From positions 1 to 54,097 of the IMG/VR virus record IMGVR_UViG_3300046003_005296: 54,097 nt of DNA; one strand, 5' to 3'. Source of the DNA: a virus. Made by a program: the position numbers and the translations under genes. Below the pieces are notes generated by a model, which saw only the letters and a program-made list of their open reading frames with translations, was not told the DNA's origin and did not search any database. Positions 14,946 to 43,247 of this stretch are shown piece by piece. Within the stretch, counting starts at the first letter, position 1. Every line of letters begins with the position of its first letter.

Positions 14946-14947
14946 AT

Positions 14948-15790: not shown

Positions 15791-15794
15791 ATAT

Positions 15795-17197: not shown

Positions 17198-17200
17198 CAT

Positions 17201-18154
17201 ATGAAAAAAATACTAGTAGCCGGCGGCGCAGGATATATCGGGTCTCGTTTTTGCAATGAATTATCAAATGACTATGATATTACTGTTATAGATTTATTTT
17301 GGTTTGGAGATCATTTAGTTGATAATATAAAAAGAATTAAAAAAGATATCGCCGAACTACGAGTAGATGATTTAAAAGATTTTGATGCTGTTGTATTTCT
17401 AGGAGGATTATCAAATGACCCAATGGCTCAATTCCGACCAGATTTAAATTTTAATGGGAATAGTTCAATACCTACGTATTTAGCATATATTTCTAAACAA
17501 GCAGGAATTAAAAGATTTATATGTGCTAGTTCATGTAGTGTATATGGATTTACTGATAATCAAACATTAACCGAAGAAGATTTTGTAAAACCAGCATACG
17601 CATATGGAATTTCAAAATTACAATGTGAAAGTGGCTTAATGATTCTAGAAGATGAAAATTTTAGACCGATCATGTTTAGAAAAGGTACCGTTGGCGGATT
17701 TTCTCCTAGGATGCGTTATGATTTAGTTGTTAACACAATGATTATGTCGGGAATTTCGAAAGGCAAAATTACGGTAAATAGTGCAAACTTATGGAGACCG
17801 TTGATTGATATACGAGATGTCATACAAGGTTATCGTTTAGCATTAGAAGCTGATTTATCAATATCGGGCGTATTTAATTTATCAGGATTTAATTTTACAA
17901 TTGGAGAATTAGGAACCATGATAACTAAAGAATTAAATGATAGAGGATATAATGTAGAATTAGAAATTTTAGAAAATCTGGATATTAGGAATTATAAAGT
18001 TAGCACTAATAAAATTGAAACTCAATTAGGATACAAACCTAGATATACGCCTGCAGATACTATTAAAGAACTATTTGAAAAAATTGATTTTTCTAAATAT
18101 GATTTTTGTACTCCAGAATTTTATAATATTGAAATCTTTAAAGAAGTAATATGA
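17201..18154 (+). CDS. NAD-dependent epimerase/dehydratase (extended SDR)
   Basis: 317 aa. Nucleotide-binding GGAGYIGS at residues 8-15, SSCSVYG as the Ser region, YGISK as the catalytic YxxxK, and WRPLIDIRDV, the usual extended-SDR substrate-side block. Acts on a nucleotide-sugar (4-epimerase, 4,6-dehydratase or 4-reductase cannot be separated). Overlaps the next reductase gene by 4 bp. Confidence 0.87.
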   Translation: MKKILVAGGAGYIGSRFCNELSNDYDITVIDLFWFGDHLVDNIKRIKKDIAELRVDDLKDFDAVVFLGGLSNDPMAQFRPDLNFNGNSSIPTYLAYISKQAGIKRFICASSCSVYGFTDNQTLTEEDFVKPAYAYGISKLQCESGLMILEDENFRPIMFRKGTVGGFSPRMRYDLVVNTMIMSGISKGKITVNSANLWRPLIDIRDVIQGYRLALEADLSISGVFNLSGFNFTIGELGTMITKELNDRGYNVELEILENLDIRNYKVSTNKIETQLGYKPRYTPADTIKELFEKIDFSKYDFCTPEFYNIEIFKEVI

Positions 18155-18867
18155 AAATTTTAATAACAGGCGGTTCTGGATTGTTAGGATCTAATTTAAT
18201 ATTGGAACTAAAAAATAGAAATATTGAATATGTAGCACCCGCACATGATGTATGCGATATTACCAAGTATGAACAACTAGAAACTGTTATTTCACAGATA
18301 AGACCAAATATAATTGTTCATTGCGCAGCAATTGCTAAGTTTGCAGATGTTGAAACAAACCCAATATTAGCATTAGATGCCAATATTATTGGTACTACGA
18401 ACATTACAAAAATTTGTATCAAATATAATATCAGACTCATATTCATATCAACGTCGCACGTCTTTGATGGCAAAAAAGGTATGTATGATATTAATGATCA
18501 AATTAATCCATTAACTAAATATTCTAAAACTAAAGCAGCTGGAGAATATATTGTATCATGTTATGAAAATTCTTTAAGTATTCGTACTGAATTTTGCGGC
18601 ATAGATTTTCCATTTGATACTGCATATACGGATAAATGGTCTTCAAAAGAATATGTTGATAATTTAACGCCCACCATGGTAGATGCAATTGTTAGTAATC
18701 AAACTGGCATCACACATATTGCTGGTGAACGTAAATCATTTTATGATTTTGGTTTAGAACGAAATCCAAATGTTAAGCCAGGCAGTATTAAAGAAATACA
18801 ATCAGTATCTAAAGTTCCCATTTTAGTGGATACTAGTTTGAAATGTTATAATAAATTTGGACTTTAG
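18151..18867 (+). CDS. dTDP-4-dehydrorhamnose reductase-like SDR (RmlD-like)
   Basis: 238 aa, somewhat short for RmlD (about 290). GGSGLLGSNL at the N-terminus, the RmlD-like DVCDIT followed by RPNIIVHCAA, STSHVFDG as the Ser/Thr site and YSKTKAAGE as YxxxK. Reduces the 4-keto group of an NDP-6-deoxy-4-ketosugar, the step after RmlC. It is the last gene before a short A+T-rich gap. Confidence 0.83.
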   Translation: MKILITGGSGLLGSNLILELKNRNIEYVAPAHDVCDITKYEQLETVISQIRPNIIVHCAAIAKFADVETNPILALDANIIGTTNITKICIKYNIRLIFISTSHVFDGKKGMYDINDQINPLTKYSKTKAAGEYIVSCYENSLSIRTEFCGIDFPFDTAYTDKWSSKEYVDNLTPTMVDAIVSNQTGITHIAGERKSFYDFGLERNPNVKPGSIKEIQSVSKVPILVDTSLKCYNKFGL

Positions 18868-18913
18868 AAAAATTTTAAATATAATATTATAAACAATAAA
18901 AAAGGTATAATAT
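18868..18913 (+). promoter_or_regulatory. TATAAT-type promoter and ribosome site
   Basis: A 46-bp gap with TTTAAATATAATATTATAA and an A-rich AAAAAAGG 9-16 bases before the ATG at 18914. Suggests an internal promoter for the second half of the glycan locus. Confidence 0.45.
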
Positions 18914-19888
18914 ATGTTAAACTATGAAAACTTAATTGGTAGATTTGAAGAAGTGATCCAATCAAAAGAATGGTCAGAATTACAAGACAAATTTAACAAA
19001 TCTAACAACATTTACATTTTAGGCCATGGCGGCAATTTAGCAGTAGCAGATCATGCCGCGGCGGATATCACCAGATTATCAAACGGACAACGTTTAGCAC
19101 AAGCACCAGGTTCTGCAATTTTAGCAACATCACTTATTAATGATACAGATTGGGATCAATGGATGGTATCATGGATGGAAGCATTTACTAGAAACCGTAC
19201 TGAAGAACAAATTTCTCAATCATTGGTATTAGGAATTAGTTCGTCTGGTCGAAGTAAAGATATTATTAAGGCATTACAATGGGCTAATACGAGAGGATTG
19301 AATACGGCTTGTATTACATCACATGCTCTATCTGAAAAAGTAGAAAATTGCACAACGGTGGAATTAGGAGCAGAATATTATCATACTGCGGAAGTTTTAA
19401 CATTATTATTAACATACGAATTGACACATGGATCTGGCTGTGCTACTCCACCAATTAATAATAATCGTCCAGAAGAATTAAAACAATTGAATTGGAATAA
19501 AGGAATTCGTAAACATTCATATCCAGATGAGACGATTAATTTAGGTATTGATTTTGATGGCGTAATTCATAAAAATTCAAAAGGATATCATGATGGGACA
19601 ATTTATGATGAGCCAGTTGATGGAATTGAAGCTGCATTAAAAACATTATCTAAACAATATACATTAATTTGTTACACAGCAAAAGCAAAACCAGATAGAG
19701 GTTTAGTAAATGGCAAAACTGGAACACAATTGGTATGGGAATGGTTAGAAAAACATGGTTTAGATAAATATATTTCAAAAGTCACTGCAGAAAAACCTAG
19801 AGCAGTTGCATATATTGATGATAAAGCATTTCGTTTTACTGATTGGAATTCATGCATCGCCGATTTAAAAAATAATGGAGTATTGTAA
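18914..19888 (+). CDS. SIS-domain isomerase (GmhA-like) fused to a HAD phosphatase
   Basis: 324 aa with two domains. Residues about 1-175 are a SIS domain like sedoheptulose-7-phosphate isomerase GmhA: ILGHGGNLAVADHAAADIT, then GISSSGRSKDI. Residues about 208-322 are a HAD phosphatase: DFDGV at 213-217 (nucleophile and acid/base Asp), Thr in CYTAKAK, K294 and DD at 302-303. All four HAD motifs are present. In heptose synthesis the isomerase and the phosphatase (GmhB) are normally separate; fusing them puts steps of one pathway on one chain. The sugar kinase/adenylyltransferase HldE is not seen here. A heptose-like or other phospho-sugar is the probable substrate. Confidence 0.82.
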   Translation: MLNYENLIGRFEEVIQSKEWSELQDKFNKSNNIYILGHGGNLAVADHAAADITRLSNGQRLAQAPGSAILATSLINDTDWDQWMVSWMEAFTRNRTEEQISQSLVLGISSSGRSKDIIKALQWANTRGLNTACITSHALSEKVENCTTVELGAEYYHTAEVLTLLLTYELTHGSGCATPPINNNRPEELKQLNWNKGIRKHSYPDETINLGIDFDGVIHKNSKGYHDGTIYDEPVDGIEAALKTLSKQYTLICYTAKAKPDRGLVNGKTGTQLVWEWLEKHGLDKYISKVTAEKPRAVAYIDDKAFRFTDWNSCIADLKNNGVL

Positions 19889-20545
19889 ATGGATATTACA
19901 ATTGTAATTCCAGCTCGAGCTGGCTCAACTAGAGTAGTAAATAAAAATTTTAAACCATTTGCAAATTCTAGTTTAATAGAAATAAAAATCAAACAAGCCA
20001 AAAAATTAGGATTACCAATAGTTATAGATTCTGATAGCAATGTGGCTAAAGACTTAGCAGCTAAGTATGGTGTTGAATATAAAAGGCGTCCGGATTTTTA
20101 TGCTAGTTCAGAATGTAATAATAGTCAATATTATGAATATTTAGGTAATAGCGTGTCTACTAAATATATAATGATACTTCAACCAACAGCTCCATTATTA
20201 AAAGATGAAACTTTAAAAAATTGTTACGAAGAATTTGAAAAAAATTGTAATCAATATGATTCTTTAGTAACTGCACTATTTGCAAAAAAACATGCATGGT
20301 ATAAAGATTCGCCAATTAATTATGATTTAGCAAATACCCCAAACTCTCAAGATCTAGATCCTATAAAATTACCAACCTTTAACGTAATGATTTCAGAAAT
20401 ATCTAGTTTGTTACGAACAAAAAATGCAATAACGAATAATTGTTTATTTTATCCAATTGAAGAAGCTGAAGGCATTGAGATTGATACTCCATTAGATTTT
20501 GAAATTGCAGAATTCTTATATGAAAGAAACCATGGCAATCAATAA
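19889..20545 (+). CDS. CMP-sugar synthase-like cytidylyltransferase (NeuA/KdsB family)
   Basis: 218 aa. IPARAGSTRVVNKN at the N-terminus corresponds to the IPARGGSKRIPRKN nucleotide-binding loop; YIMILQPTAPLL matches the LQPTSPLR block of NeuA. Activates an acidic or amino sugar with CTP (or, in relatives, GTP for heptose, HddC-like). It begins at the base after the GmhA-HAD stop, so a nucleotide-heptose route is one reading and a nonulosonic acid route another. Confidence 0.82.
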   Translation: MDITIVIPARAGSTRVVNKNFKPFANSSLIEIKIKQAKKLGLPIVIDSDSNVAKDLAAKYGVEYKRRPDFYASSECNNSQYYEYLGNSVSTKYIMILQPTAPLLKDETLKNCYEEFEKNCNQYDSLVTALFAKKHAWYKDSPINYDLANTPNSQDLDPIKLPTFNVMISEISSLLRTKNAITNNCLFYPIEEAEGIEIDTPLDFEIAEFLYERNHGNQ

Positions 20546-21149
20546 TATACATTGTTTAGCATTAAATTATCGAGGTATAGGATTATTGGATCAAGATCCA
20601 ATCTATTTTCTTAAATCTACTAGTTGTTTATCAAAAGAACATTCAACTATTCCATATCCTAAATATAAAGTTGATAATGTATGGACTGAAGTTGAATTAG
20701 GAATACTAATTGGACAAGATTGTGAAAATGTATCAGAAGACGATGCGTATAATGTAATTGAAGGTTTCTTTGTTGCCGGAGATATTACATGTAATAGTAT
20801 TTATGATCGCGATCATCATTTAGCATTTTCTAAATCTAGAACTGGATTTTGTCCTATATCATCTAATGTTACGCATTTAGATTTAAGAAATAAAACATTG
20901 GAAATGAAAACATTTATAAATGGCGTAGAACTTCAATGCGGTAATACTTCAGATATGATAATGAACCCATATCAATCTTTAAGTTATATTTCCAAATTAG
21001 TTAAGTTAAATAAAGGTGATATAATTTTAACAGGAACGCCTACTACAATTAATGGCGGACCACAAGTTGATTGTTTAGTTAAACCAAATGATGTTATCAA
21101 ACATAGTATCGAATCAATTGGCGAATTAAATTATAAGTTTAGCATATGA
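20532..21149 (+). CDS. Fumarylacetoacetate hydrolase (FAH)-family enzyme
   Basis: 205 aa from the ATG at 20532 (an upstream in-frame ATG at 20499 lies inside the previous gene). FAH core: WTEVELGILIG (metal-binding E-x-E), VAGDITCNSIYDRDH (counterpart of the conserved ND-S-RD segment), SRTGFCPI, and GDIILTGTPTTI near the C-terminus. The family cleaves C-C bonds or decarboxylates/isomerises 2-oxo acids with a divalent metal. Unusual inside a sugar locus; a pyruvyl-type or acyl-pyruvate substrate can be imagined but is not shown. Overlaps both neighbours. Confidence 0.82.
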   Translation: MAINNIHCLALNYRGIGLLDQDPIYFLKSTSCLSKEHSTIPYPKYKVDNVWTEVELGILIGQDCENVSEDDAYNVIEGFFVAGDITCNSIYDRDHHLAFSKSRTGFCPISSNVTHLDLRNKTLEMKTFINGVELQCGNTSDMIMNPYQSLSYISKLVKLNKGDIILTGTPTTINGGPQVDCLVKPNDVIKHSIESIGELNYKFSI

Positions 21150-22036
21150 ATATATTAGTAACTGGTGGTTGTGGTTTAATTGGATCTAATTTAGTAACTG
21201 CATTAAAAAAATTAGATCATAACGTAATTACTGTAGATATTAATGAATCAGCTGATTATGTATTAGATATTAGTATGGATGATTTATTACAAATTGAAGA
21301 ACCAATTGATGTAATATATCATTTAGCAGCACAGCCATATGGAAGAGGTTCTGAAATAGATCCGTCGATGGACTTAGAATTTAATATACGAGGTACGATG
21401 CGTATTTGTTATTTAGCAGAATATAAACAAGTTAAACATATCGTATATACATCTACGATGGCTGTTTATGGAAATAATGATAACGCATCTGAAATTGATA
21501 AATTAGATCCATTATCTAATTATGCAGTAAGTAAATTATCAGCTGAATACTATCTTAAGAAATTTGCACAACAATATAATTTTACATATTCTATTCTAAG
21601 ATTATGGAATACATATGGCCCGGGCCAGGATTTATCAAATGAATACAAAGGCGTTGTTTCTGCATTTGCAAATCAAGTTATTAATAGTAATACAATCAAT
21701 GTAACAGGTTCGTTAGATAGATATCGTGATATTATTTATGTAGATGATGTAGTAAATGCATTACTATTAATGTTATCTGTTAACTATTCGGATACATTTA
21801 ATGTATCAACTGGTATTAAAACTACAATAAAAGAATTGATTCACGCTTTAATTAAAGCTAATGGTAATGAATTAATTGATTATGATATTGTTGATATTGG
21901 CGGACATCCGGGAGATCAATTCGGATGCATTGGAAATTCTGATAAATTAAAAAACTTAGGGTGGAATCCAGAAACAACATTAGAAATTGGCATTAATAAA
22001 TTTTTAACATATATAAAAGAACAAAATGCAAAATAA
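21146..22036 (+). CDS. NAD-dependent sugar epimerase/dehydratase (extended SDR)
   Basis: 296 aa. GGCGLIGSNL nucleotide loop, YTSTMAVYG, YAVSKLSAE (YxxxK), LRLWNTYGPG and DIIYVDDVVNA, all in the order of UDP-glucose 4-epimerase/GDP-mannose dehydratase type SDRs. Makes or modifies a nucleotide-sugar for the transferases around it. Overlaps the methyltransferase gene by 11 bp. Confidence 0.87.
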   Translation: MNILVTGGCGLIGSNLVTALKKLDHNVITVDINESADYVLDISMDDLLQIEEPIDVIYHLAAQPYGRGSEIDPSMDLEFNIRGTMRICYLAEYKQVKHIVYTSTMAVYGNNDNASEIDKLDPLSNYAVSKLSAEYYLKKFAQQYNFTYSILRLWNTYGPGQDLSNEYKGVVSAFANQVINSNTINVTGSLDRYRDIIYVDDVVNALLLMLSVNYSDTFNVSTGIKTTIKELIHALIKANGNELIDYDIVDIGGHPGDQFGCIGNSDKLKNLGWNPETTLEIGINKFLTYIKEQNAK

Positions 22037-22763
22037 AACATTAGTAGAAATACTAAAACATCATAAATGGGATTGTGATAAAGACCCGCATTGTGGAAAT
22101 AAAATGTTCCCAGGGCATACTTATCTAGAAGTATATGATCGATTATTCAGTGTATATCAACATGAAGATATCAATGTATTAGAAATTGGAATTCTGCGTG
22201 GTACTTCTATGAAATTGTGGCATGAATATTTTTCTAAAGCAACAATTTGGGGAGCAGATACATTTGAACGAACTTCTTGGGTTGGATGCACATTAAATGA
22301 AGTTACAGAAACACTTAAAGATTATACTAGAACAAAATTAGTTCAAGTAAATTCATGTTCAAATGATTTTAATGCCATGATTGAACGCAATAAGTTTTTA
22401 GAAAGTATTCCAGATGGATTTTTTCATGTTATTATCGATGATGGATCGCATGAATTAAATGATCAGGTACAAACTTATAATAACTTCAAATCTAAATTGA
22501 ATAAAGATGGAATTTATATCGTAGAAGATATTGGTATTACTAATAGTATGGCAATTGAACCAAACTTATTAATTAACGAAATTCCAGAACTTCATCTAAT
22601 TGATATGCGTTTTCCGGAAAAATATGATAACGCGCTAGCAATTTATTATGATTCAGAATCTATTCATTTTAAACATCATGATGAATATATGTTAAGTAAA
22701 CATTGGGAAACAGCGCCAGAATTTACACATGAATACATTTTAAACAAACAAAGAGAACAATAA
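22026..22763 (+). CDS. Class I SAM-dependent methyltransferase (MycE/cephalosporin-hydroxylase-like family)
   Basis: 245 aa. The opening half has YLEVYDRLFSVYQ and the SAM loop VLEIGILRGTSMKLWHEYF, then a GADTF acidic end of strand 2, FHVIIDDGSHELNDQ as metal/substrate motif, and DGIYIVEDI. This is the pattern of macrocin-type sugar O-methyltransferases. A sugar O-methyl group on the glycan is the likely product. Shares one base with the next gene. Confidence 0.78.
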   Translation: MQNKTLVEILKHHKWDCDKDPHCGNKMFPGHTYLEVYDRLFSVYQHEDINVLEIGILRGTSMKLWHEYFSKATIWGADTFERTSWVGCTLNEVTETLKDYTRTKLVQVNSCSNDFNAMIERNKFLESIPDGFFHVIIDDGSHELNDQVQTYNNFKSKLNKDGIYIVEDIGITNSMAIEPNLLINEIPELHLIDMRFPEKYDNALAIYYDSESIHFKHHDEYMLSKHWETAPEFTHEYILNKQREQ

Positions 22764-23386
22764 TGCGAGTAGTTTTAGTAAGTAAAGGACCATCTGCGAG
22801 ACATATTCCTAAGAGTGATGATTATAAAATTGCAGCATTGAATGATGCTATTATTTTATGTGAAGAAGTTGATTACTTTTTTTGTCACGATCAAGATAAT
22901 ATTGATATTATTGATCCAAATGAATGGAAAAAAGTTAAGAATTTTATTATGCCATATTATCCACAAAAGCGTCATCCAGGTGGATTTAGTGAAGATAATA
23001 ATTATCATGTTTGGATGGATGATGTATTAAAAATTAATCCAGACTGCAAATTCCATTTTGTTGCATTAGGAGTCCATGGCATGAATGGATTGATTTGTCC
23101 TTCTGATATTCCGCATATGGGAGAAACTTACTCCGTCCTACAGACAGCAGCAACTTGGTTGGGAATGAGCGGTGTTACTGAGTTGGTAACTTGTGGTATT
23201 GATCCGGAGGGAGGTTATCACCCTATGTTTGAGCACAAGTACTTAGGAGAAAGACGTAATCAGAAGTCGGTATGGACTCCAGAAATGGCTAAGGTTACAG
23301 AAGATAAATTCCACAACATAGCTAGACAGTATAATTATACTGTTTATAGACTAATGGACGATGGAACAGCCCTGCAGTCATCATAA
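22763..23386 (+). CDS. DUF115/GT42-like protein, chimeric in composition
   Basis: 207 aa. The start VVLVSKGPSARHI and KIAALNDAIILCEEVDYFFCHD (GPS loop, Asn-Asp strand, D-x-hydrophobic strand) resembles the DUF115 / MptE-like and sialyltransferase GT42 type folds that bind a nucleotide diphosphate or nucleotide-sugar. Later GVTELVTCGIDPEGGYHP reads as a second strand and loop. From about 23,100 to its end base and codon use change (more GAG, TAC, TTC; higher G+C), while the first half matches neighbours, suggesting a recombination joint inside the gene. Function inferred only loosely. Confidence 0.6.
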   Translation: MRVVLVSKGPSARHIPKSDDYKIAALNDAIILCEEVDYFFCHDQDNIDIIDPNEWKKVKNFIMPYYPQKRHPGGFSEDNNYHVWMDDVLKINPDCKFHFVALGVHGMNGLICPSDIPHMGETYSVLQTAATWLGMSGVTELVTCGIDPEGGYHPMFEHKYLGERRNQKSVWTPEMAKVTEDKFHNIARQYNYTVYRLMDDGTALQSS

Positions 23387-23411
23387 TAATTTAAAACAAA
23401 ATAATTTAAAA
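23386..23411 (+). repeat. Tandem 11-bp direct repeat
   Basis: ATAATTTAAAA at 23386-23396 and again at 23401-23411, in the gap between the chimeric gene and the methyltransferase. It lies inside the atypical-composition island. Confidence 0.6.
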
Positions 23412-23413
23412 GC

Positions 23414-23947
23414 ATGGAACATTTTTGGCAAAACGTAGAAGGGTACTTAGACCACTTCGACTTATATGATTTAGCTGTTAGCAAGTTTGATAAGGGAACT
23501 TTCGTTGAGATCGGAACCTTTGCCGGTCGTAGTAGTGCGTACTTGGGTACCGAGATACACAACTCAGGAAAAAAAATTAAGCTACACACTGTAGACCATT
23601 TCAGCATATCTGTCGACAGTAGTGCAAATTCTACAGACTTCTACGAACGAGTTGTGGAAACACTGAAACCACTACAACATTGCGTATCGGTTATTAAAGG
23701 CAAGTCTGTAGAGGTCTCAAAGCAGTTTGCAGATGACTCTATAGATTTTGTATTCATAGATGCATCTCACGACTATGAGAGCGTTAAGGAAGATATCGAA
23801 GCTTGGTTGCCTAAAGTTAAGGTTGGTGGTATAGTAGGAGGCGATGATTACCAATGGGAAGGTGTCATTAAAGCAGTACAAGAACTAGTACCAGATGCTA
23901 AAGCTATCGGGGTGAGAGATTCTAATTGGTTTTGGGTAAAGGAGTAA
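23414..23947 (+). CDS. SAM-dependent methyltransferase (Methyltransf_24 type), transferred
   Basis: 177 aa. FVEIGTFAGRSSAYL is the SAM-binding loop, HTVDHF the acidic strand-2 end, and IDFVFIDASHDYESVKEDIEAWLPKV the motif with catalytic/metal Asp; GGIVGGDDY follows. Small methyltransferases of this kind occur in polysaccharide loci. G+C and codon use (GAG, GTC, TAC, CTA) differ plainly from the A+T-rich flanks, ending exactly at 23947, so the gene was probably acquired recently as part of a 0.85-kb block. Confidence 0.85.
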   Translation: MEHFWQNVEGYLDHFDLYDLAVSKFDKGTFVEIGTFAGRSSAYLGTEIHNSGKKIKLHTVDHFSISVDSSANSTDFYERVVETLKPLQHCVSVIKGKSVEVSKQFADDSIDFVFIDASHDYESVKEDIEAWLPKVKVGGIVGGDDYQWEGVIKAVQELVPDAKAIGVRDSNWFWVKE

Positions 23948-23950
23948 TTT

Positions 23951-24715
23951 ATGAGAATATTAAGTACATTAGCTTGTTATGCTGGTAATTCAAATCCGTA
24001 TTTAAAACCAGTAGTTGAAGAATTAAAAAAAGTATCTGATGTTGTAGTATTTTCACCAGAACGCATAGATATTGATGGTGTCACCACTGAAATTCGAGAT
24101 AAATCGTTAGGTCATTCTTTAGTTTTTGAACCTAGACAATATATGTTAGATCATTTAACAGAATATGATTATTTTTTATATAATGAAGATGATATACTTA
24201 TCAATGCTGATTCTTTATTATATGCAATCGATGTTAATGAAAAATTACAAAAACAGAACATACAATATAATGTTGGTTTTTTAAGATTTGAATTAGAAAA
24301 TGAAAAAGAAGAATTTGTAGATTTAGCTCCATATAATTCAGTTCATTTAGGCGGTAATGGCGTATCTGATATAATACGATATATAACTAAAATCAATAAT
24401 GAATATTATTTCAATGCATGGAACCCGCATAGTGGAAACTTTTTATTATCACAAAAACAAATAACATTATTAACAAACGGCAATCATTTTCCGACATCAG
24501 CTGTAGCTACCTACGCTGGTATATTAGAAAGTGGCGCAACTGGCTTTAATGATGTTATTCGTAAGTTTACCCCAATACAAGATTATAAAAAGTTAATGGT
24601 ACATCATATGAGTAATAAATACATATTCAATCCAGTTAAAGTTGATTGCAATTTATTAGATAATTTTTTTAAATTCTTACCAGAAGATTTACCACAATAT
24701 TATTTGAATTTATAA
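23951..24715 (+). CDS. Putative glycosyltransferase
   Basis: 254 aa. It has a GT-A-like layout: a first strand RILSTLACYAG, then YDYFLYNEDDILIN, where NEDD sits in the place of a DxD motif, then NPHSGNFLLS. No membrane segment. Similar proteins in polysaccharide loci are annotated only as putative transferases. Native composition resumes here after the foreign block. Stop is one base before the WbqC gene. Confidence 0.6.
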   Translation: MRILSTLACYAGNSNPYLKPVVEELKKVSDVVVFSPERIDIDGVTTEIRDKSLGHSLVFEPRQYMLDHLTEYDYFLYNEDDILINADSLLYAIDVNEKLQKQNIQYNVGFLRFELENEKEEFVDLAPYNSVHLGGNGVSDIIRYITKINNEYYFNAWNPHSGNFLLSQKQITLLTNGNHFPTSAVATYAGILESGATGFNDVIRKFTPIQDYKKLMVHHMSNKYIFNPVKVDCNLLDNFFKFLPEDLPQYYLNL

Positions 24716-24716
24716 T

Positions 24717-25283
24717 ATGATTGTTACAATTCACCAACCAAATTTTATGCCATGGTATCCATTTTTTCAAAAGATACAACAAGCAGATATATTTGTTTTA
24801 TTAGGACATTGTCAATTTGAAAAAAACGGATTTCAAAATCGATTCAATATGGATGGCAAATGGAATACGATGAGCGTTAAAAAAGGATTAGAATTTATCA
24901 ACACAAAACAATATATTGACGCAAAGAAAGATTGGGAACGGATTAAAAATTCTATACCAAAATATAAACATATTTTATCAGAAATGGATGATTTAATATC
25001 TGATAATTTATATCAAACGAATTCATCTATTATTCGATATCTAGTTAAAAAATTAAATATTGATACTATTATAGTAGAAGATTATGAAACAGATTTAACT
25101 TCTACTAGTAGATTAGTAGATATATGTAAAAGAAATGGCGCTACTACTTATTTAGCAGGACAAGGCGGCAAAGATTATTTAAACGAAGAATTATTCAATA
25201 TTGAAAATATACAAGTAGTATATCAAGAAAATATGAATAGGATTCACACATTGGAGTATCTAAATGAAATTTCTAAATTTTAA
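24717..25283 (+). CDS. WbqC-family protein
   Basis: 188 aa, somewhat shorter than the usual 220-240. The family start IHQPNFMPWYPFFQKIQQADIFVLL and the following FEKNGFQNR are clear (compare IHQPxYLPWxGYFxKIxxAD). WbqC proteins occur in O-antigen and capsule loci; a role in amino-sugar modification has been proposed but is not settled. Overlaps the deacetylase gene by 20 bp. Confidence 0.87.
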   Translation: MIVTIHQPNFMPWYPFFQKIQQADIFVLLGHCQFEKNGFQNRFNMDGKWNTMSVKKGLEFINTKQYIDAKKDWERIKNSIPKYKHILSEMDDLISDNLYQTNSSIIRYLVKKLNIDTIIVEDYETDLTSTSRLVDICKRNGATTYLAGQGGKDYLNEELFNIENIQVVYQENMNRIHTLEYLNEISKF

Positions 25284-25899
25284 TAAAGTTTTATGTTTAT
25301 CTCCGCATCCAGACGATGTAGAATATAGTATGTTAGGTACTATATTAAAATACAATGAAACTAAATTTTATTTATTGCAATTAGCACAAGGTGGCGATTG
25401 TGATGAATCAACAGGCGAACATCGATTAAAAGAAGTTGAAAATGTATGGAAAACTGCAGGATGTACTAATCTGCAAATTATAAATACATCATATAAATTT
25501 ATCAAAGATATTCCAGAAGAAAATTGGATCAATTTAATTGAAACCATACTTAAGAATACAGATGAAGAATTTGATGCTATTTTTCTTCCAAATGAAACTG
25601 ATTCTCATTTCGAACATAGATATGTTTCTGGTTTTGGTTCTGCATTGATTCGTAATAGTAAAATTAGTTTGATACAATATTATACGCCAAGCACGCAAGA
25701 TGCATGGCAATCTAATTTATATGTAGATATTGAAACACAATATAATAAAAAATTAGAATCATTGAAAATGTTTACGAGTCAGCAACATCGTTATTATTTT
25801 ACTGAGGATGTGTTACGAGCATTTCATAGTGACTTTCAATGTTCTAAAAAAAAATTACATTATGTTGAAAAATATAGAATTTTAAATTTATTTGATTGA
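25264..25899 (+). CDS. LmbE/PIG-L-family deacetylase
   Basis: 211 aa. Zinc motif SPHPDDVE at 13-20 (H15, D17, D18) and second ligand motif in DSHFEHR at 113-119 (H115, H118), as in GlcNAc-PI and bacillithiol-type de-N-acetylases. Removes an acetyl group from an N-acetylated sugar, either on a nucleotide-sugar or on the glycan. Fits with WbqC just upstream, since amino sugars are implied by both. ATG at 25264 lies inside the WbqC gene. Confidence 0.9.
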   Translation: MKFLNFNKVLCLSPHPDDVEYSMLGTILKYNETKFYLLQLAQGGDCDESTGEHRLKEVENVWKTAGCTNLQIINTSYKFIKDIPEENWINLIETILKNTDEEFDAIFLPNETDSHFEHRYVSGFGSALIRNSKISLIQYYTPSTQDAWQSNLYVDIETQYNKKLESLKMFTSQQHRYYFTEDVLRAFHSDFQCSKKKLHYVEKYRILNLFD

Positions 25900-25900
25900 T

Positions 25901-26698
25901 ATGGATAATTTAGTTTTTTTATTTAAGTCACACGCACCGCACGTTCATTATACTAAACAGTTAATTGAGACAACTGCAAAACATAACAAAGATAACATTC
26001 CAGTATATGTTTCGATACCAAAACATCAAGAACAATTATTTAAAGATGTACTCGGCACATCAGATTACACAATGATATTTGATGAGGATGTTATACAAGG
26101 TTCTATAGATCAAAATTGGTTTACGCAACAATTGGTTAAAATGAAATTCAGTGAAATGAATTTATGTAACAATTATCTATGGGTAGATGGCGATTCATAT
26201 TTTATTCGAGATTTCTTTATCAGTGATTTTATGTTTGATGAAGAAACACCTTATACAACTATGCATGAAAATAAAGATTTATTTCAATGGATGGCAACTA
26301 AAGGAAATTTATTAGATAATGTTAAACAGTCATATGAACAAGATAGAAAAACCATAATGGATTTATTTGGACGTAAGGGTAAATTTTATGATTGGACATG
26401 TCCTAATTTATGGTCCGTTAAAGTTTTTGATCATATGAGAGAACATTATTTAGAACCAAATGAATTATCATATGAACAACTATTACAAGTAATCCCAGGA
26501 GAATTAATCTGGTATGGCGAATATGTTTTAGCATCAGAAGCTATACGATTAGTTCCATGCGAATCATGGTTCAAACCATTTCATTATTTAGAACAAATGA
26601 CTGATTTTAAACAACAAGGCAATACAGAAGAAACGATTGCAAAGAATTTTTTAGGTATAGTTATGCCTAGTAAAGAAACATCTCAATTAAGATTTTAA
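25901..26698 (+). CDS. Putative glycosyltransferase (DUF6492-like)
   Basis: 265 aa from the ATG at 25901, one base after the previous stop (a TTG three codons earlier is in frame). GT-A-like pattern: LVFLFKSHAPHVHYTKQLIET, then NYLWVDGDSYFIRDF, where DGDS is the probable metal-binding DxD. The late WYGEYVLASEAI recalls the acceptor-binding helix of DUF6492-type transferases. Cytosolic; acceptor unknown. Confidence 0.68.
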   Translation: MDNLVFLFKSHAPHVHYTKQLIETTAKHNKDNIPVYVSIPKHQEQLFKDVLGTSDYTMIFDEDVIQGSIDQNWFTQQLVKMKFSEMNLCNNYLWVDGDSYFIRDFFISDFMFDEETPYTTMHENKDLFQWMATKGNLLDNVKQSYEQDRKTIMDLFGRKGKFYDWTCPNLWSVKVFDHMREHYLEPNELSYEQLLQVIPGELIWYGEYVLASEAIRLVPCESWFKPFHYLEQMTDFKQQGNTEETIAKNFLGIVMPSKETSQLRF

Positions 26699-26699
26699 T

Positions 26700-27422
26700 A
26701 TGTTAATAGCAACACTCAATCACAATTTACCTACATGGACAGATAATTTAGTAAATCAATTACGCCGAGATACGTACTTTGAAAAATGTGAGCTAATGGT
26801 ATTAGATAATGGTTCTTCAGAATCGTTAGCACAATCGACTACACATCGTTTAGATGAAAATATATTCTTCGGCGGAGGTTTTAATGTAGTATTAGATTAT
26901 TTTTTACAAACAGATCATGAGTATCTTTACTTTTTAAATAATGATCTTGTATTTCATGGTCCAGCATTCTTATCAACATCGATTCGAGAAGCTTTAGAAT
27001 CAGATGCATCGGTTTATTCGCCATCGGTTATCAATGCATCGATTGATCAATGTCATTGGAAACAAATGTGGAATTGGGGTCAAGGATTACGCAACGTACG
27101 TTGGATTGATTTTCAGGCTCCATTAATACGTAGAGATATCTTAGAAAAAATAAAACAGTTTCCAAATGAATTAATATACGGATGGGGCTTAGATTTTTAT
27201 GCAGGTTGTATTGCTGACCAATATGGAATGAAAACCATTGTGTCAGACAACAATACTATTGCACATATGAATTCATTAACATTTAAAGAAAACAAGATAA
27301 ATATCGGAGTCTCAGAATTTTGTAGGAACGCAGAATCAAATATGAATTCGTATTTTTTGAATTCTGAATTTAATTCCTTATATTCTAATATGAGACAATA
27401 CGGAGAAAACTATACAATATGA
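26700..27422 (+). CDS. GT2-family glycosyltransferase
   Basis: 240 aa. Begins LIATLNHNLPTWTDNLVNQL, has VLDNGSSESL and YLYFLNNDLVF with NND in the DxD place, a FQAPLIRRDIL segment, and GWGLDFYAG for the acceptor side. A GT-A fold inverting transferase. Overlaps the next transferase by 4 bp. Confidence 0.82.
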   Translation: MLIATLNHNLPTWTDNLVNQLRRDTYFEKCELMVLDNGSSESLAQSTTHRLDENIFFGGGFNVVLDYFLQTDHEYLYFLNNDLVFHGPAFLSTSIREALESDASVYSPSVINASIDQCHWKQMWNWGQGLRNVRWIDFQAPLIRRDILEKIKQFPNELIYGWGLDFYAGCIADQYGMKTIVSDNNTIAHMNSLTFKENKINIGVSEFCRNAESNMNSYFLNSEFNSLYSNMRQYGENYTI

Positions 27423-28561
27423 TATCACTAATTATACCTAGTTACAACAATTTGCGACATTTAAAAAATGTATATGCAAGTATTCAAAAACACGCACCAG
27501 AAGCAGAAGTTATTTTATTAGATGATGGGTCAACTGACGGCACTAAAGATTGGATACAACAACAAAACTGTATTACATATAGAAGTGAAGAACGAGTGGG
27601 CCATACAATATTATATGATAAAGGTATCGAGCTCGCTACAAATGATATAGTGGGTATCTTACACGCCGATATGATTATTGGTCCTTTGTATATCGAAAAT
27701 ATGTTAAAGCACTTACAACCAGGGAAAGTTGTATGTGCGACCCGTATAGAACCACCTTTACACCCAGAAGGAAAAGAAAAGATCATAATGGATTTCGGAC
27801 AAGACTTTGATACCTTAGATATCAATGCATTTGAAGAATTTGTTATGCATAAACAAGAAGAAGAATTAGATAAAGTAACATATGGAATGTTTGCGCCATG
27901 GATTCTTTATAAAAAAGATTTTCAAGCTATTGGAGGTCATGACCCGTTATTTGCCCCGTTCCCATATGAAGATTCAGATATCTTCCAACGTTGGATATTA
28001 GCAGGATATGAATTAATACAGAGTCGAGATGCATTTGTATATCATTTAACATGTAGAGGCCATCGATGGACAGAACAAGTAGGGCAAGATGATGATTACT
28101 TTAAACAAGTTTCAGAAAAAGCTGGCAGAAACTATTTAAGAAAATGGGGTAGCTGGATTAAAAATAACGAATGGCAGTATCCTATTATTTTACCAAAATA
28201 CAATATTGCCTTCCGCGTAGAAAATTGTTCTCAAGATTTATTGCGTTTATTAGAGCCATGTTGCGATAGAATATATTCAGATGCAGAATGGATGAAATAT
28301 ATTACGTTAGAACAACCTAAAACTAAATATGATTTACGTAAACGATGTCATTCACTAACAGACATTGATCGATATGATTATGATGATATTGTAGTTGAAA
28401 TAGACGGTAAACGATTTACTCAACAAGATTATAATTTCATAGAAAATCTATCAGCAATTATACAAGATTCGGGAGAGGTCGGTATGTTTCAATTGGGCAA
28501 TTTAAAAATATCCATCATGAACATACAAGATCTTGTAAATGAACTCATTATTTGCAAGTAA
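27419..28561 (+). CDS. GT2-family glycosyltransferase with C-terminal extension
   Basis: 380 aa. GT2 domain in residues about 1-240: SLIIPSYNNLRHLKNVYASI, LLDDGSTDGTKDW, GILHADMII (HAD in place of DxD), GGHDPLFAPFPYEDSDIFQRW (ED-x-D acceptor motif). The last 140 residues are not part of the catalytic domain, hold paired cysteines (CCD) and many charged residues, and may recognise a protein or nucleic acid partner. It is the last gene of the glycan locus. Confidence 0.85.
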   Translation: MISLIIPSYNNLRHLKNVYASIQKHAPEAEVILLDDGSTDGTKDWIQQQNCITYRSEERVGHTILYDKGIELATNDIVGILHADMIIGPLYIENMLKHLQPGKVVCATRIEPPLHPEGKEKIIMDFGQDFDTLDINAFEEFVMHKQEEELDKVTYGMFAPWILYKKDFQAIGGHDPLFAPFPYEDSDIFQRWILAGYELIQSRDAFVYHLTCRGHRWTEQVGQDDDYFKQVSEKAGRNYLRKWGSWIKNNEWQYPIILPKYNIAFRVENCSQDLLRLLEPCCDRIYSDAEWMKYITLEQPKTKYDLRKRCHSLTDIDRYDYDDIVVEIDGKRFTQQDYNFIENLSAIIQDSGEVGMFQLGNLKISIMNIQDLVNELIICK

Positions 28562-33818: not shown

Positions 33819-34151
33819 ATGAAACTAATAAATTTACTTTTTGAATCAAAAGACAAAAAAGAGACTTTTGAATCATTTGCAGACACTAGAGAAGCGGGTG
33901 CTGAGAAGATTGTTGATAATGCAAAGAAAAAAGGAGGCTTAGCTCTTCTTACTTGGCATCATTTCAAAGTTAAATTGCCTTACTACAAAAAAGCTGCGGC
34001 TGGTAATTTTGATTTAGATGCAGCAAAAAAAGAATATGATGCTACATATAAAAAGATATCTACATCAATGTCTCAAATTGAATTCCAAAGAGAAGTAGGA
34101 CGTTTAGAAGTTTTAGGGGAATTAATTATTCGCGAACAAAAAGGCAAATAA
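33819..34151 (+). CDS. Putative internal head protein with capsid-targeting-like N-terminus
   Basis: 110 aa, Lys-rich, helical. The first nine residues MKLINLLFE, followed by SKDKK, match the shape of the T4 capsid-targeting sequence (MKTYQEFIAE, cut after I-A-E by the prohead protease): two hydrophobic residues, then x, then Glu. The same pattern begins three further proteins downstream. The remainder is unassigned. Proposed as a protein packaged in the head and released with DNA. Confidence 0.6.
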   Translation: MKLINLLFESKDKKETFESFADTREAGAEKIVDNAKKKGGLALLTWHHFKVKLPYYKKAAAGNFDLDAAKKEYDATYKKISTSMSQIEFQREVGRLEVLGELIIREQKGK

Positions 34152-34966
34152 TGATTAAACTAAAATCTATATTATCTGAAACAGCTAGTCCAAAAGCAAT
34201 TGAATGGGCGAAAAAGTTTAAAACAGATTTAGGATTAACCGACGAAGCTGCAGCTGCTATGGCTGCTAATATACAACACGAATCTGGATTTATACCAGAT
34301 CGTATACAAGGAGCGGGAGTAAAAACAGGTACATTAGCTGATTCTGGGGGGCTAGGATATAGTTGGGCACAATGGACATATGGCGCCAGAAAAAAAAAAT
34401 TTAGAAAACATGTTTTAGATAGATTTAATGTAGATATAAAAAAGAAGCCAGCTACTGATAAATTTGCATATGATTTTTTAAAACATGAAATTATACAGTA
34501 TCCGGGATTTAATTTTAATAAATTTAAACAATCAACTGATTTAGAACAGGCTACAACTGAATTTGTATCTAAATATGAGCAAGCCGGCAAACCGATGCTG
34601 AATACTAGAATTGCATTAGCAAAAGATATTTTAAATGCAATTAAACCAAAACAATCAAAACAAAAAACATCATTGCCTGGTTCGGAATATATGACTATAG
34701 GAAAAACATTGTATCCTAGGAATACTTCGAAACATAATTATGCAAATGTTCGAACCGAACCCATAGTTAATAATGGATGGATTAATAATATTATTACAAC
34801 TATAGAATGGCCTAATCCGGTAGGCGTAGCAAAAGCAAAGAAAACCGATGAGCGAATGATGACTTGGTATTATGTTAAATTACCTAAAAATATAAGTTTA
34901 CTTCATGATTATGGTTGGGTTCGATTCGATGCAGTAACTATTGATAAAAATTCTAAATTCGTATAA
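34151..34966 (+). CDS. Phage tail-lysozyme-type muramidase with capsid-targeting-like N-terminus and SH3-like C-terminus
   Basis: 271 aa. Starts MIKLKSILSE, then TAS: the head-targeting pattern with predicted cut after E10. Residues about 14-160 are a phage lysozyme domain: MAANIQHESGFIPD with catalytic-type E44, and GLGYSWAQWTYGAR (counterpart of GLG-x-AQWT-x-R). Residues about 190-271 (YANVRTEP, WYYVKLP, YGWVRFD) form a bacterial SH3-like cell-wall binding domain. No signal peptide. A peptidoglycan hydrolase carried in the virion would fit, to help DNA entry; a baseplate location is the alternative. Confidence 0.75.
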   Translation: MIKLKSILSETASPKAIEWAKKFKTDLGLTDEAAAAMAANIQHESGFIPDRIQGAGVKTGTLADSGGLGYSWAQWTYGARKKKFRKHVLDRFNVDIKKKPATDKFAYDFLKHEIIQYPGFNFNKFKQSTDLEQATTEFVSKYEQAGKPMLNTRIALAKDILNAIKPKQSKQKTSLPGSEYMTIGKTLYPRNTSKHNYANVRTEPIVNNGWINNIITTIEWPNPVGVAKAKKTDERMMTWYYVKLPKNISLLHDYGWVRFDAVTIDKNSKFV

Positions 34967-34990
34967 TTTGGATAATTTGAATTAATTATA

Positions 34991-35001
34991 TATTATAAGT
35001 T
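34991..35001 (+). promoter_or_regulatory. TATTAT promoter-like box
   Basis: AATTATATATTATAAGTT with TATTAT at 34991-34996, five bases before the ATG at 35002. Leaderless-type spacing. Confidence 0.4.
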
Positions 35002-35202
35002 ATGAATCAGAATTTCATAGAACGTTTATTTGTAGATTCCATTAATATTATGCAAACCGATAAGTGGGAATGGCCTGATCATTGGGATCGAGAAAGACGT
35101 TTAAAATTTTTAAATGAGTCATTGCGATTCGCAGAAGATCGAGAATTATTTGAACAATGTGCAATTATTAGAGATGTCAAAGAAAGTTTACACGAAATCT
35201 AA
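35002..35202 (+). CDS. Small UVR-motif-like protein
   Basis: 66 aa. The C-terminal FLNESLRFAEDRELFEQCAIIRDVKESL resembles the UVR helical hairpin of UvrB/UvrC/McsA proteins (A-x4-EFE-x-AA-x-hydrophobic-RD). Such motifs mediate protein contacts, including with Clp adaptors and UvrA. It overlaps the ClpS-like gene by 29 bp. Function inferred only from motif. Confidence 0.6.
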   Translation: MNQNFIERLFVDSINIMQTDKWEWPDHWDRERRLKFLNESLRFAEDRELFEQCAIIRDVKESLHEI

Positions 35203-35443
35203 TAGAGGACCGCATCATGTAATTCTATTCAATGACGATCGAATAACATTTGATCACGTTGTTGATTGTTTGATGTCATATTGCGATTATAATGAGTTAC
35301 AGGCATATCAATGTGCAGTAATTGTAGATCAAGCAGGGGAATGCTCAATATTTACAGATACATATGATGAATGTATTCAAGTTAGTACGTTATTAAATAA
35401 ATCTAAATTAAAAACGATAGTTAAAAAATATAAAAAGAAATGA
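35174..35443 (+). CDS. clpS: ClpS-like Clp protease adaptor
   Basis: 89 aa from the ATG at 35174; a longer frame from 35114 lies mostly inside the upstream gene. HHVILFNDDRITFDHVVDCLM matches ClpS (KVILxNDDYTPMEFVVxVL), with NDD at 20-22 that lines the N-end-rule binding pocket; then a shortened VDQAGECSIFTDTYDE in place of VHYQGKA-x-CG-x-FT. The pocket His of ClpS seems not kept. ClpS delivers N-degron proteins to ClpAP. Might redirect host proteolysis, or block it as a decoy. Confidence 0.75.
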   Translation: MSKKVYTKSNRGPHHVILFNDDRITFDHVVDCLMSYCDYNELQAYQCAVIVDQAGECSIFTDTYDECIQVSTLLNKSKLKTIVKKYKKK

Positions 35444-35625
35444 TTACTTTTTTTATAAAAATTCGTATAGGTATACTTCATGCTACATATCATAGAAACA
35501 TGAAGAAAGCAGATATTGCAAGAACTAATCACGATATAGTTTCCTTTAAAAAGTATATTTACCAAGCTGAAGATGCTTGGCGTAAAATAGTTATATTAAC
35601 AAATAAAATAAAAACAAATGGGTAG
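35440..35625 (+). CDS. Small hypothetical protein
   Basis: 61 aa, basic, amphipathic N-terminus. It starts in a 4-bp ATGA overlap with the ClpS-like stop and ends 8 bp inside the next gene, so it fills the gap exactly. Not recognised. Confidence 0.55.
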   Translation: MITFFIKIRIGILHATYHRNMKKADIARTNHDIVSFKKYIYQAEDAWRKIVILTNKIKTNG

Positions 35626-36004
35626 AAAATCTGCACACACTGGAGAGTCTCCAAAAGATCGTTCGATCAATATCATGGATAAGTTCATAGCAAAAAATAT
35701 GAACCGCGAAAAACATCAACCATTTAAATCTGCTAGAAGAAAAGATCCAGATATTCCAATTCATATGTGGCCTTTGAAAGATCAAATCGAATATTGGGAA
35801 AATCGTACAGATGCAGATAGATTTGACGATGCTTACCCGGTATATTCATTTTGGATTATAGAAGTTCAAAAACAAACAAAAGTACATTCATCATTTTTTA
35901 CGGATCGAGCAATGAAACTAAAAGATTTGTTGCAACAAATGTATGATGAAAAAACGATGCCTAAAGATGCAGTTACTGTTCTCCGAAAACATGGAGTTTA
36001 CTAA
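35618..36004 (+). CDS. Hypothetical protein
   Basis: 128 aa, charged, soluble, no motif recognised. The middle (DPDIPIHMWPLKDQIEYWENR) is Trp/Pro-rich. It shares one base with the HNH gene and is probably co-transcribed with it and with the ClpS-like gene. Confidence 0.65.
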   Translation: MGRKSAHTGESPKDRSINIMDKFIAKNMNREKHQPFKSARRKDPDIPIHMWPLKDQIEYWENRTDADRFDDAYPVYSFWIIEVQKQTKVHSSFFTDRAMKLKDLLQQMYDEKTMPKDAVTVLRKHGVY

Positions 36005-36558
36005 TGGAAGAAAAACAATATAAGTATGTATATGGAATTGGTAAAACAGCCTTAGATATTCCTGAAAGCGAAATTCGTTATGCAATGGATAATACAAAAT
36101 CTAATGCAGAAGCCGCTCGCTTTCTTAAAGTATCATTTACTACTTATAAAAAGTATGCTCGTATGTATACAGACCGAGATTCGGGTAAGACGTTGTATGA
36201 GCTACATAAAAATCAATTTGGAGTAGGAATTCCTAAAGATGTTCAAAAAGCATCGAAAGGAATCTATTCGATTGATAATATATTGTCAGGCAAACATCCT
36301 AATTATCCTTCATGGAAGCTTCGCAATCGATTGTTAGCATTGGGAGTATTCAAAGAAGAATGTTCTAGTTGCGGTTATAGCGAACGAAGAATAACTGATG
36401 ATACTGTCCCGGTATTATTAGATCACATCGACGGAGATGAAACAAATCATCAATTGGATAATCTACAAATGTTATGTTTGAATTGTTACTATCAGCAATC
36501 AGGTAATCCATATAATGTTGACAAAGAAACATATTGGAATTACAATTTGCTTGAGTGA
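36004..36558 (+). CDS. HNH endonuclease with N-terminal helix-turn-helix
   Basis: 184 aa. The N-terminal 60 residues include NAEAARFLKVSFTTYKKYAR, a helix-turn-helix-like stretch. The C-terminal nuclease domain has a zinc CSSC (120, 123), LDHIDGDETNH (D140, H141, N148, H149), N153 and CLNC (158, 161): a complete zinc-stabilised HNH/beta-beta-alpha-metal site. May be a free-standing homing endonuclease or a functional phage nuclease (packaging, restriction). No intron or interrupted host gene is seen next to it. Confidence 0.87.
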   Translation: MEEKQYKYVYGIGKTALDIPESEIRYAMDNTKSNAEAARFLKVSFTTYKKYARMYTDRDSGKTLYELHKNQFGVGIPKDVQKASKGIYSIDNILSGKHPNYPSWKLRNRLLALGVFKEECSSCGYSERRITDDTVPVLLDHIDGDETNHQLDNLQMLCLNCYYQQSGNPYNVDKETYWNYNLLE

Positions 36559-36565
36559 TATTTAT
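36559..36565 (+). promoter_or_regulatory. TATTTAT-type promoter box abutting an ATG
   Basis: GATATTTATTAATATG, identical over 15 bases to the site at 33807-33821; four bases from the ATG at 36570. Confidence 0.6.
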
Positions 36566-36569
36566 TAAT

Positions 36570-37322
36570 ATGATATCTTTAAAAAAGTTAATTGTAGAAG
36601 GTCGATATGATAGTTTAGTTACTACATTGTCTCGTAAACTATTACAAATAATCAAAGACAGTTATGCTTGTACTAAAGATCCAGAGGGATTCTTCGGCGG
36701 AGAAAAGATATACTTTAAAAAAGGCGAAGAAGTTCCGCATATTGAAGACTCAAGCCAAATAGATCATATTTACTTTGAAGAAGTAGAGAATCCAGATATT
36801 CCATTAGATTTTTATTTGACACTTAAAGTTCAATGGATTGAAGGTTTAGATGATGTACACGTAGGCGGAGATGCATATAATGAAACAAAACGAGGTGTTG
36901 CTGATGCTGCACCATTAATTGAAATTCGTTTTAAATTAGATCCTGCAGATTATCCTAAAGTATTATCTGAAATTGCATTTGATCTTCGTGACACACTTCG
37001 TCATGAAATTGAACATATCACGCAAAGTGGATGGAATACAATAGATTCAAAATATATTCCGTCAGACCAAGCAATGCGTAATAAAATTGAATCAGGCAAA
37101 TTACCGCCAGCTCGATACTTTACATTACCAAAAGAAATAGATGCAATGATTCAAGGGTTGTATTTGCGAGCTAAAAAAACACGTACGCCTTTTAAACAAG
37201 TTGTTGATAATTATTTAAATATATGGGTTAGCAATCAATCTATAACCGAAATAGATAAACAAACTATCTTAAAGGTTTGGAGAGAACGTTTACCTAAGCT
37301 AGGAATTCGTCAGGAGATATAA
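36570..37322 (+). CDS. HExxH metalloprotease-like protein with capsid-targeting-like N-terminus
   Basis: 250 aa from the ATG at 36570 (an in-frame ATG at 36555 overlaps the HNH stop and the promoter box). Begins MISLKKLIVE then GRY, the head-targeting/prohead-cleavage pattern (I-V-E). HEIEH at residues 145-149 within RHEIEHITQSGW is a zincin zinc-binding helix; a Glu in the KEIDAMIQGL helix about 45 residues later may be the third ligand. Proposed as a packaged protease delivered to the host or used in maturation; both are inference. Confidence 0.65.
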   Translation: MISLKKLIVEGRYDSLVTTLSRKLLQIIKDSYACTKDPEGFFGGEKIYFKKGEEVPHIEDSSQIDHIYFEEVENPDIPLDFYLTLKVQWIEGLDDVHVGGDAYNETKRGVADAAPLIEIRFKLDPADYPKVLSEIAFDLRDTLRHEIEHITQSGWNTIDSKYIPSDQAMRNKIESGKLPPARYFTLPKEIDAMIQGLYLRAKKTRTPFKQVVDNYLNIWVSNQSITEIDKQTILKVWRERLPKLGIRQEI

Positions 37323-38071
37323 TGATCCGTTTGCAAGACATAATGAATGAAGATTTGCGCCGCTGGGTTAAAGAAAAGTGGGTTGATCAACATGGACGTC
37401 CTTGTGGTAATGATAAAACCAAAGGTGTAAAAAAATGTCGTCCTAGCAAAAAAGTTTCTAAAGATACTCCTAAAACATGGAGTTCATTTGATAAAAAAGA
37501 AAAGGATTCATTAGTAGCACAAAAGCGTAGAGTTGGTATGGGTAAACGTACTCCTAAAGCTGAAGCAGTTATTGATGAGGAGAAAAAAGCAAAACGAGAT
37601 GCATGTTATCGCAAAGTTAAAGCTCGTTACACACGCAATGGAGGAACATGGCCGTCAGCATATGGTTCATTGGCTCTCTCAGCTTGTCGTAAAAAAGGTG
37701 CTAAGAATTGGGGTAACAAAACAAAAAATGAAGAATTAGAAAAGGAATCCATGGAAGAAATGTCTATTTGTACAGAATGTGCAATTGCAATGATGGAAGA
37801 TATCAAAGCTGGTAAGTTTGATGTAATAACAGAAGCAGAATACCAAGGTCGCAAAGTTCAATTAGGTAAACCAATGCGTGGCGATGTAAAAAAATTCAAA
37901 GTCTACGTTAAGAATGAAAAAGGCAACGTTGTAAAGGTTAACTTCGGCGACCCTAATATGAGAATTCGTAAGAGCAATCCTGCACGTAGACGTTCATTTA
38001 GAGCTAGACACCGTTGTCATACAGCCAAAGATAGAACATCAGCAAGATATTGGTCTTGTCGTAAGTGGTAA
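37322..38071 (+). CDS. DUF5872/DUF6321-like basic protein with capsid-targeting-like N-terminus
   Basis: 249 aa, strongly basic. Begins MIRLQDIMNE, the same pattern as above. Residues 11-50 (LRRWVKEKWVDQ, GRPCG, KKCRPSKKVS) match the DUF5872 element of phages; residues about 180-249 (VQLGKPMRGD, KVYVKNEKGNVVKVNFGDPNM, SFRARHRC, SARYWSCRKW) match the widely spread DUF6321 element. A linker ending in FDVITE precedes the second element and could be a further prohead-protease site. Possibly a DNA-binding virion protein. It shares one base with the metalloprotease gene (TAATG). Confidence 0.75.
   Translation: MIRLQDIMNEDLRRWVKEKWVDQHGRPCGNDKTKGVKKCRPSKKVSKDTPKTWSSFDKKEKDSLVAQKRRVGMGKRTPKAEAVIDEEKKAKRDACYRKVKARYTRNGGTWPSAYGSLALSACRKKGAKNWGNKTKNEELEKESMEEMSICTECAIAMMEDIKAGKFDVITEAEYQGRKVQLGKPMRGDVKKFKVYVKNEKGNVVKVNFGDPNMRIRKSNPARRRSFRARHRCHTAKDRTSARYWSCRKW

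Positions 38072-41618: not shown

Positions 41619-43247
<1,629 letters not shown>

Follow-up and report, generated by a model that had tools for sequence, protein, structure and literature searches.

The window analyzed in this study is an entire virus fragment of 54,097 bases from IMG/VR (record IMGVR_UViG_3300046003_005296), derived from an uncultured T4-like phage, in which four genes encode proteins with a similar N-terminus of nine or ten residues. This ten-residue N-terminus very probably serves as a T4-type propeptide that targets proteins to the capsid and is then cleaved off, with a larger enzyme cargo than that of T4. The leader, its modularity and its position-specific conservation are evident from the sequences compared, as are a gp21-type prohead protease and a matching capsid cut site in the relatives of this phage. 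Binding to the prohead core, cleavage, packaging and injection of the leader-bearing proteins are proposed.

Four leader-bearing genes of the window

The first-pass annotation described four otherwise unrelated proteins with a T4-like capsid-targeting N-terminus, in which Glu is residue 9 or 10 and follows a hydrophobic residue two positions before it. Open reading frames (ORFs) and alignment confirmed these N-termini and their places on the + strand. The leaders and the proteins that carry them are as follows.

33819..33845, + strand: leader MKLINLLFE (9 residues), predicted cut after E9; K2, L3, L7 and E9 do not vary among 10 orthologs
33819..34151, + strand: basic, all-helical protein of 110 residues with leader; predicted mature N-terminus SKDKK, mature isoelectric point (pI) 9.4
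34151..34180, + strand: leader MIKLKSILSE, predicted cut after E10; retained when the following lysozyme core is swapped
34151..34966, + strand: lysozyme with leader, PF18013 core (residues 21-162) and C-terminal domain; predicted mature N-terminus TASPK
36570..36599, + strand: leader MISLKKLIVE, predicted cut after E10; M1 and E10 do not vary among 14 orthologs
36570..37322, + strand: probable zinc metalloprotease with leader, HEIEH invariant; predicted mature N-terminus GRYDS
37322..37351, + strand: leader MIRLQDIMNE, predicted cut after E10; the DUF5872 match begins at residue 10, the leader end
37322..38071, + strand: basic protein with leader, DUF5872 (PF19197) and further phage domains of unknown function; predicted mature N-terminus DLRRW, mature pI 10.2

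When aligned on Glu, the four leaders had Leu4, Leu/Ile7, Leu/Ile/Met8 and Glu10 in common, following the pattern M-(I)-[KRS]-L-x-x-[LI]-[LIM]-x-E; in the leader of the 110-residue protein the entire motif is one residue shorter (E9). The mechanical ORF start of the third gene was GTG at 36555, whereas 14 orthologs begin at the ATG at 36570. Because M1 and E10 are invariant among them, this ATG, which was also the start chosen in the first-pass annotation, is taken as the right one.

The lysozyme and the zinc protease had also been named by the first-pass annotation. The former is a genuine match to Phage_lysozyme2 (PF18013; E = 9.1e-19, 68.5 bits against a curated cut-off of 28.2), and the HExxH motif of the latter (H145, E146 and H149) was invariant in the 14 orthologs. 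No Pfam, PHROG or PDB profile matched the HExxH protein, which showed no membership in a known peptidase family, and its AlphaFold model was too poor for use (predicted local distance difference test, pLDDT, of 50). For the 110-residue protein, which has an ortholog in Flavobacterium phage immuto (67.6%), Pfam, PHROG and PDB sequence searches gave no relative. Its AlphaFold model has a well-predicted helical body, from which the leader is set apart as a short helix of low confidence (mean pLDDT of 51 for the first ten residues); the best match of this model to PDB folds had E = 0.36.

Frequency of the leader in the window, relatives and controls

The strict motif used for counting was M.{1,3}phi..phi phi.E. 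A search of the window for further copies, suggested in the first-pass annotation, returned the same four genes only, of 77 called genes. Internal Met residues of the window carried the motif in 6 of 308 cases, against which the excess was not significant (p = 0.12). With the broader background from the relatives, the probability of at least 4 among the 77 window genes was 0.006, and that of at least 4 within 9 neighbouring genes was about 7e-5. Taken alone, the window count is suggestive of a leader.

Across the initial loci, the motif was found on 101 of 1417 distinct N-termini vs 50 of 6052 internal Met. In four near-complete T4-like contigs of 145-169 kb (G027, G028, G033 and G034), it was found on 46 of 834 N-termini vs 31 of 3273 internal Met (p = 2.4e-14); each near-complete genome had 6 to 15 strict hits. 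When phi-phi-x-E was counted by position in these contigs, Glu stood at residue 10 in 43 genes vs about 4 at most other positions. As the four contigs have orthologs in common, these gene counts are not fully independent, a dependence that the family count given below removes. Moreover, the gene caller uses the first ATG, so that carriers with a spurious start upstream, such as those at G027 53331 and immuto 109856, are missed.

As a positive control, T4 gave seven hits: ipII, ipIII, alt, gp24, gp2, 61.1 and RNase H. The first four are known gp21 substrates. The crAss-like phage phi14:2, T7 and lambda gave none among 236 genes.

The hit 61.1 of T4 (18966-19130, L107) is a protein of 54 residues and of unknown function that begins MKTFKEFIKED. 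It is similar to small leader proteins on T4-like contigs that are rich in Gly/Ser and have a Lys tail (L060:9083-9268 and L086:14094-14282), and it may represent a head protein of T4 that has gone unrecognised.

Conservation and modularity of the leader

To obtain families, E10-type carriers were stripped of their first ten residues and split at BLAST E > 1e-3. Among all relatives, the leader stood on 33 bodies without homology to one another, with the consensus M-I-[KR]-L-K-[DN]-[LI]-L-x-E. Positions outside the search motif were conserved far above background, including I2 (20/33), K/R3 (26/33) and K5 (16/33). Given the relatives and these unsearched positions, the leader excess is not a product of chance. 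Chance likeness of short N-termini, for which the p-value of the window against its own internal Met leaves room, has a negligible probability and is refuted by the enrichment in the relatives, the peak at residue 10 and the 33 families.

The residues might also be alike because of an element at the DNA level, such as a translation enhancer or a recombination tag at the 5' ends of these genes. Likeness among leader codons slightly exceeded expectation (0.54 vs 0.455), and many leaders start with ATGATA. However, among non-homologous carriers Arg3 was encoded by CGT, CGA, CGG, AGA and AGG, and Leu4 by TTA, CTA, TTG and CTT. As different codons encode the same leader residues, it is the protein sequence that is conserved, which points to selection on the residues; a DNA-level element is highly improbable and was dropped.

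The modularity of the leader is illustrated by the lysozyme slot. The PF18013 core of the window is replaced by a PF00959 core in L014, while the leader and the C-terminal domain remain the same. In other phages, the leader is followed by PF18013 with LysM or by M23 with PF18013.

Prohead protease and capsid cut site in the relatives

Homologs of gp21 were identified in G027, G028, G033, G034, immuto and Mel-JY01, and T4 gp21 was recovered with the same query (E = 1.2e-22). They matched the PHROG 'head maturation protease' with E of about 1e-54. Every leader carrier complete enough to show such a protease encodes one. The sequence contexts of T4 His85 and Ser140, which we take to be the catalytic residues, were preserved, and the gene is a neighbour of the portal, scaffold-like and capsid genes, which are arranged as in T4. 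The major capsid proteins of the relatives have QLVKE57, QIVSE59 and QLISE60 aligned to FLTE65 of T4 gp23, after which gp23 is cut. Because these capsid sites match, the specificity presumed for each protease agrees with the leaders that its own phage encodes. Together with the modular leader and the T4 control, the protease and capsid sites support the T4-like targeting and cleavage that the first-pass annotation had proposed.

Alternatively, the N-terminus could be an amphipathic helix that stays uncut and anchors the proteins in a membrane, the tail or the baseplate. Such a helix would accord with the short helix in the model of the 110-residue protein and with the frequent occurrence of PF18013 lysozymes as tail proteins. 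An anchor, however, would require no strictly conserved Glu at one set position and no match to the capsid site, and the leader was absent from the three non-T4 phages, which makes such an anchor quite improbable.

Cargo of the leader

Recognisable cargo domains are lysozymes (PF18013 and PF00959), an M23 peptidase, the HExxH protease and Zeta-toxin/AAA_33 proteins; most cargo has no recognised domain. A protein-kinase-like family was assigned by motif only (GxGDNxRVYEI, K49, DLDLDF..N and VDW), with no recognition by Pfam. Judged from these domains, cell-wall cutting by the lysozymes and M23 proteins, and proteolysis, are likely roles. By analogy with T4 Alt and IPI/IPIII, the kinase-like and Zeta-toxin-like proteins likely serve host modification or counter-defence.

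This range of cargo bears on whether the proteins, once cut and taken into the prohead, are instead structural or core components that remain in the head rather than injected effectors. The T4 shell protein gp24 has a leader that matches the motif, and some carriers are small basic proteins that could condense DNA as part of the core. Most recognisable cargo, however, consists of cell-wall, protein and nucleotide enzymes without obvious structural use in the head, and a purely structural set is therefore unlikely.

Several individual carriers were also observed. Zeta_toxin/AAA_33 P-loop proteins stand directly behind the leader at L022:7688-8458 (MIRLSDLLQE) and L048:5285-6070 (MIKLLDLLLE). 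Mel-JY01 (L096) has three nearby paralogs at 60276, 60923 and 62056 that begin MIKLKSLLQE-IISDRVWHLTT... and have no Pfam or PDB match. An ADP-ribosyltransferase identity for two Mel-JY01 proteins is not claimed, as PDB sequence searches gave nothing usable. Carriers in immuto include a protein of 104 residues (MRLLELLRE|AKEAI, predicted cut marked) and a kinase-like protein of 146 residues (MISIYNILKE|VISP). In immuto, a protein of 907 residues (107131-109854; L272:7131-9854) consists of a part like nicotinamide mononucleotide (NMN) adenylyltransferase, a second HExxH-like part (SHEMIHH) and a protease of the window type; the joint KKVMAE|GRYD retains the predicted cut site, as if the protein were a polyprotein. 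In addition, a second, longer N-terminus with two possible cut sites is common to several ORF families without BLAST similarity.

G027 61342; G033 16011, 16522 and 87353; G034 7161, 96407 and 117479 (L227, L248, L252, L240, L244, L245): longer N-terminus xxILAENMRRFGTKNLxE

Genomic context of the window

Gene 1 of the window encodes a T4-type DNA polymerase, for which Microcystis phage Mel-JY01 is the nearest named phage (45%). Among named phages, the 110-residue protein and the protease have relatives in immuto only. In the long relatives, the polymerase stands between the four-gene cluster and the head module, and head genes are therefore expected past the left end of the fragment. The capsid gene of this phage is not on the fragment, and no gp21-family protease was found in its 54 kb, the head module lying outside. 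A Pfam PF03420 search of its own record gave zero matches; the controls also gave zero, and the result is not read as absence. By comparison with the relatives, this phage presumably has a prohead protease itself.

The T4 late-promoter octamer TATAAATA was not enriched in the window, and late expression gets no support that way. Elsewhere in the window, from sequence only, are an apparent GroEL-like chaperonin gene (41637-43247) and a long series of apparent glycosyltransferase- and epimerase-like genes (14295-28561).

Discussion

The proposed mechanism is as follows. During head assembly, the hydrophobic face of the leader (residues 4 and 7) would bind the prohead core, and the leader would bring whatever protein follows it into the prohead. 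The gp21-type protease would then recognise phi8-x-E10 and cut after Glu10, and the leader would be lost. The mature protein would stay in the head with the DNA and be ejected with it into the next host. The binding and enclosure steps are suggested by the close agreement with T4, and the injection step by analogy.

Several observations weigh against this mechanism. As the head module lies outside the window, the protease is linked to the leader only via the relatives. Cyanophage syn9 has a gp21-type protease and no enrichment of the strict motif (2/205); such a protease therefore does not imply a large leader set, whose size is lineage-specific. Some matches outside the tight consensus are probably due to chance, as we presume for T4 RNase H and G034 131128, and the residue after Glu (P1') is variable. 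Moreover, a literature search for virion proteomics of leader-bearing relatives found none.

As is proposed for these phages, T7 and P22 have cell-wall enzymes in the particle, as gp16 and gp4, respectively, are virion-borne murein hydrolases; to our knowledge, neither has such a cleavable N-terminal leader. T4 carries its own lysozyme in the tail (gp5). The capsid-targeting sequence (CTS) of T4, found on IPI, IPII, IPIII and Alt and cut by gp21, is alike in its approximately 10 N-terminal residues, in hydrophobic positions 4, 7 and 8 and Glu10, and in having several non-homologous bearers; the carriers in this study have a gp21 homolog and a matching capsid site. Different from the MKTYQEFIAE of T4, however, the leader here is MI[KR]LKx[LI]LxE, and among its cargo are lysozymes, M23 and HExxH proteases and kinase-like proteins, for which cleavage and packaging are predicted from sequence. 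For IPIII of T4, targeting is reported to depend on leader residues 4 and 7 and cutting on residues 8 and 10, with L/I-x-E as the gp21 motif (PMC9026906). The four positions conserved here (4, 7, 8 and 10) are exactly these critical positions of IPIII. The CTS has been proposed as a means by which T4-like phages load varied proteins (PMC9026906), an idea that the present sequences would extend to a distant lineage. Phages phiKZ and SPN3US also pack many ejected proteins in the head, with a gp21-related protease that cuts after Glu (PMC9026906, PMC10052503). Their genomes are not T4-like, and the likeness is one of description.

We lean toward a broader proposal for this large lineage of aquatic T4-like phages, which seems somewhat better than an even chance. 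A lineage-specific ten-residue tag would mark an exchangeable set of about 6-15 pre-packed proteins per phage that are loaded into the head and injected together with the DNA. New cargo would be recruited through gene fusions behind the tag, and the set would be readable from sequence. This arsenal would comprise cell-wall hydrolases, a metalloprotease, protein-kinase-like and Zeta-toxin-like kinases and nucleotide enzymes.

Phage proteins injected with the DNA act ahead of any phage gene expression. Of the T4 internal proteins, IPI acts as an inhibitor of a restriction system, and infection of some hosts requires IPIII (PMC9391042). Being diverse and lacking annotation, injected proteins are seldom recognised. 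Should the tag hold, sequence would suffice to list the injected set for many uncultivated T4-like phages, which would provide candidate counter-defence and takeover proteins as well as a delivery tag for Flavobacterium and related hosts. The T4 head-loading system would then be older and wider than the T-even phages, with enzymes that T4 does not load.

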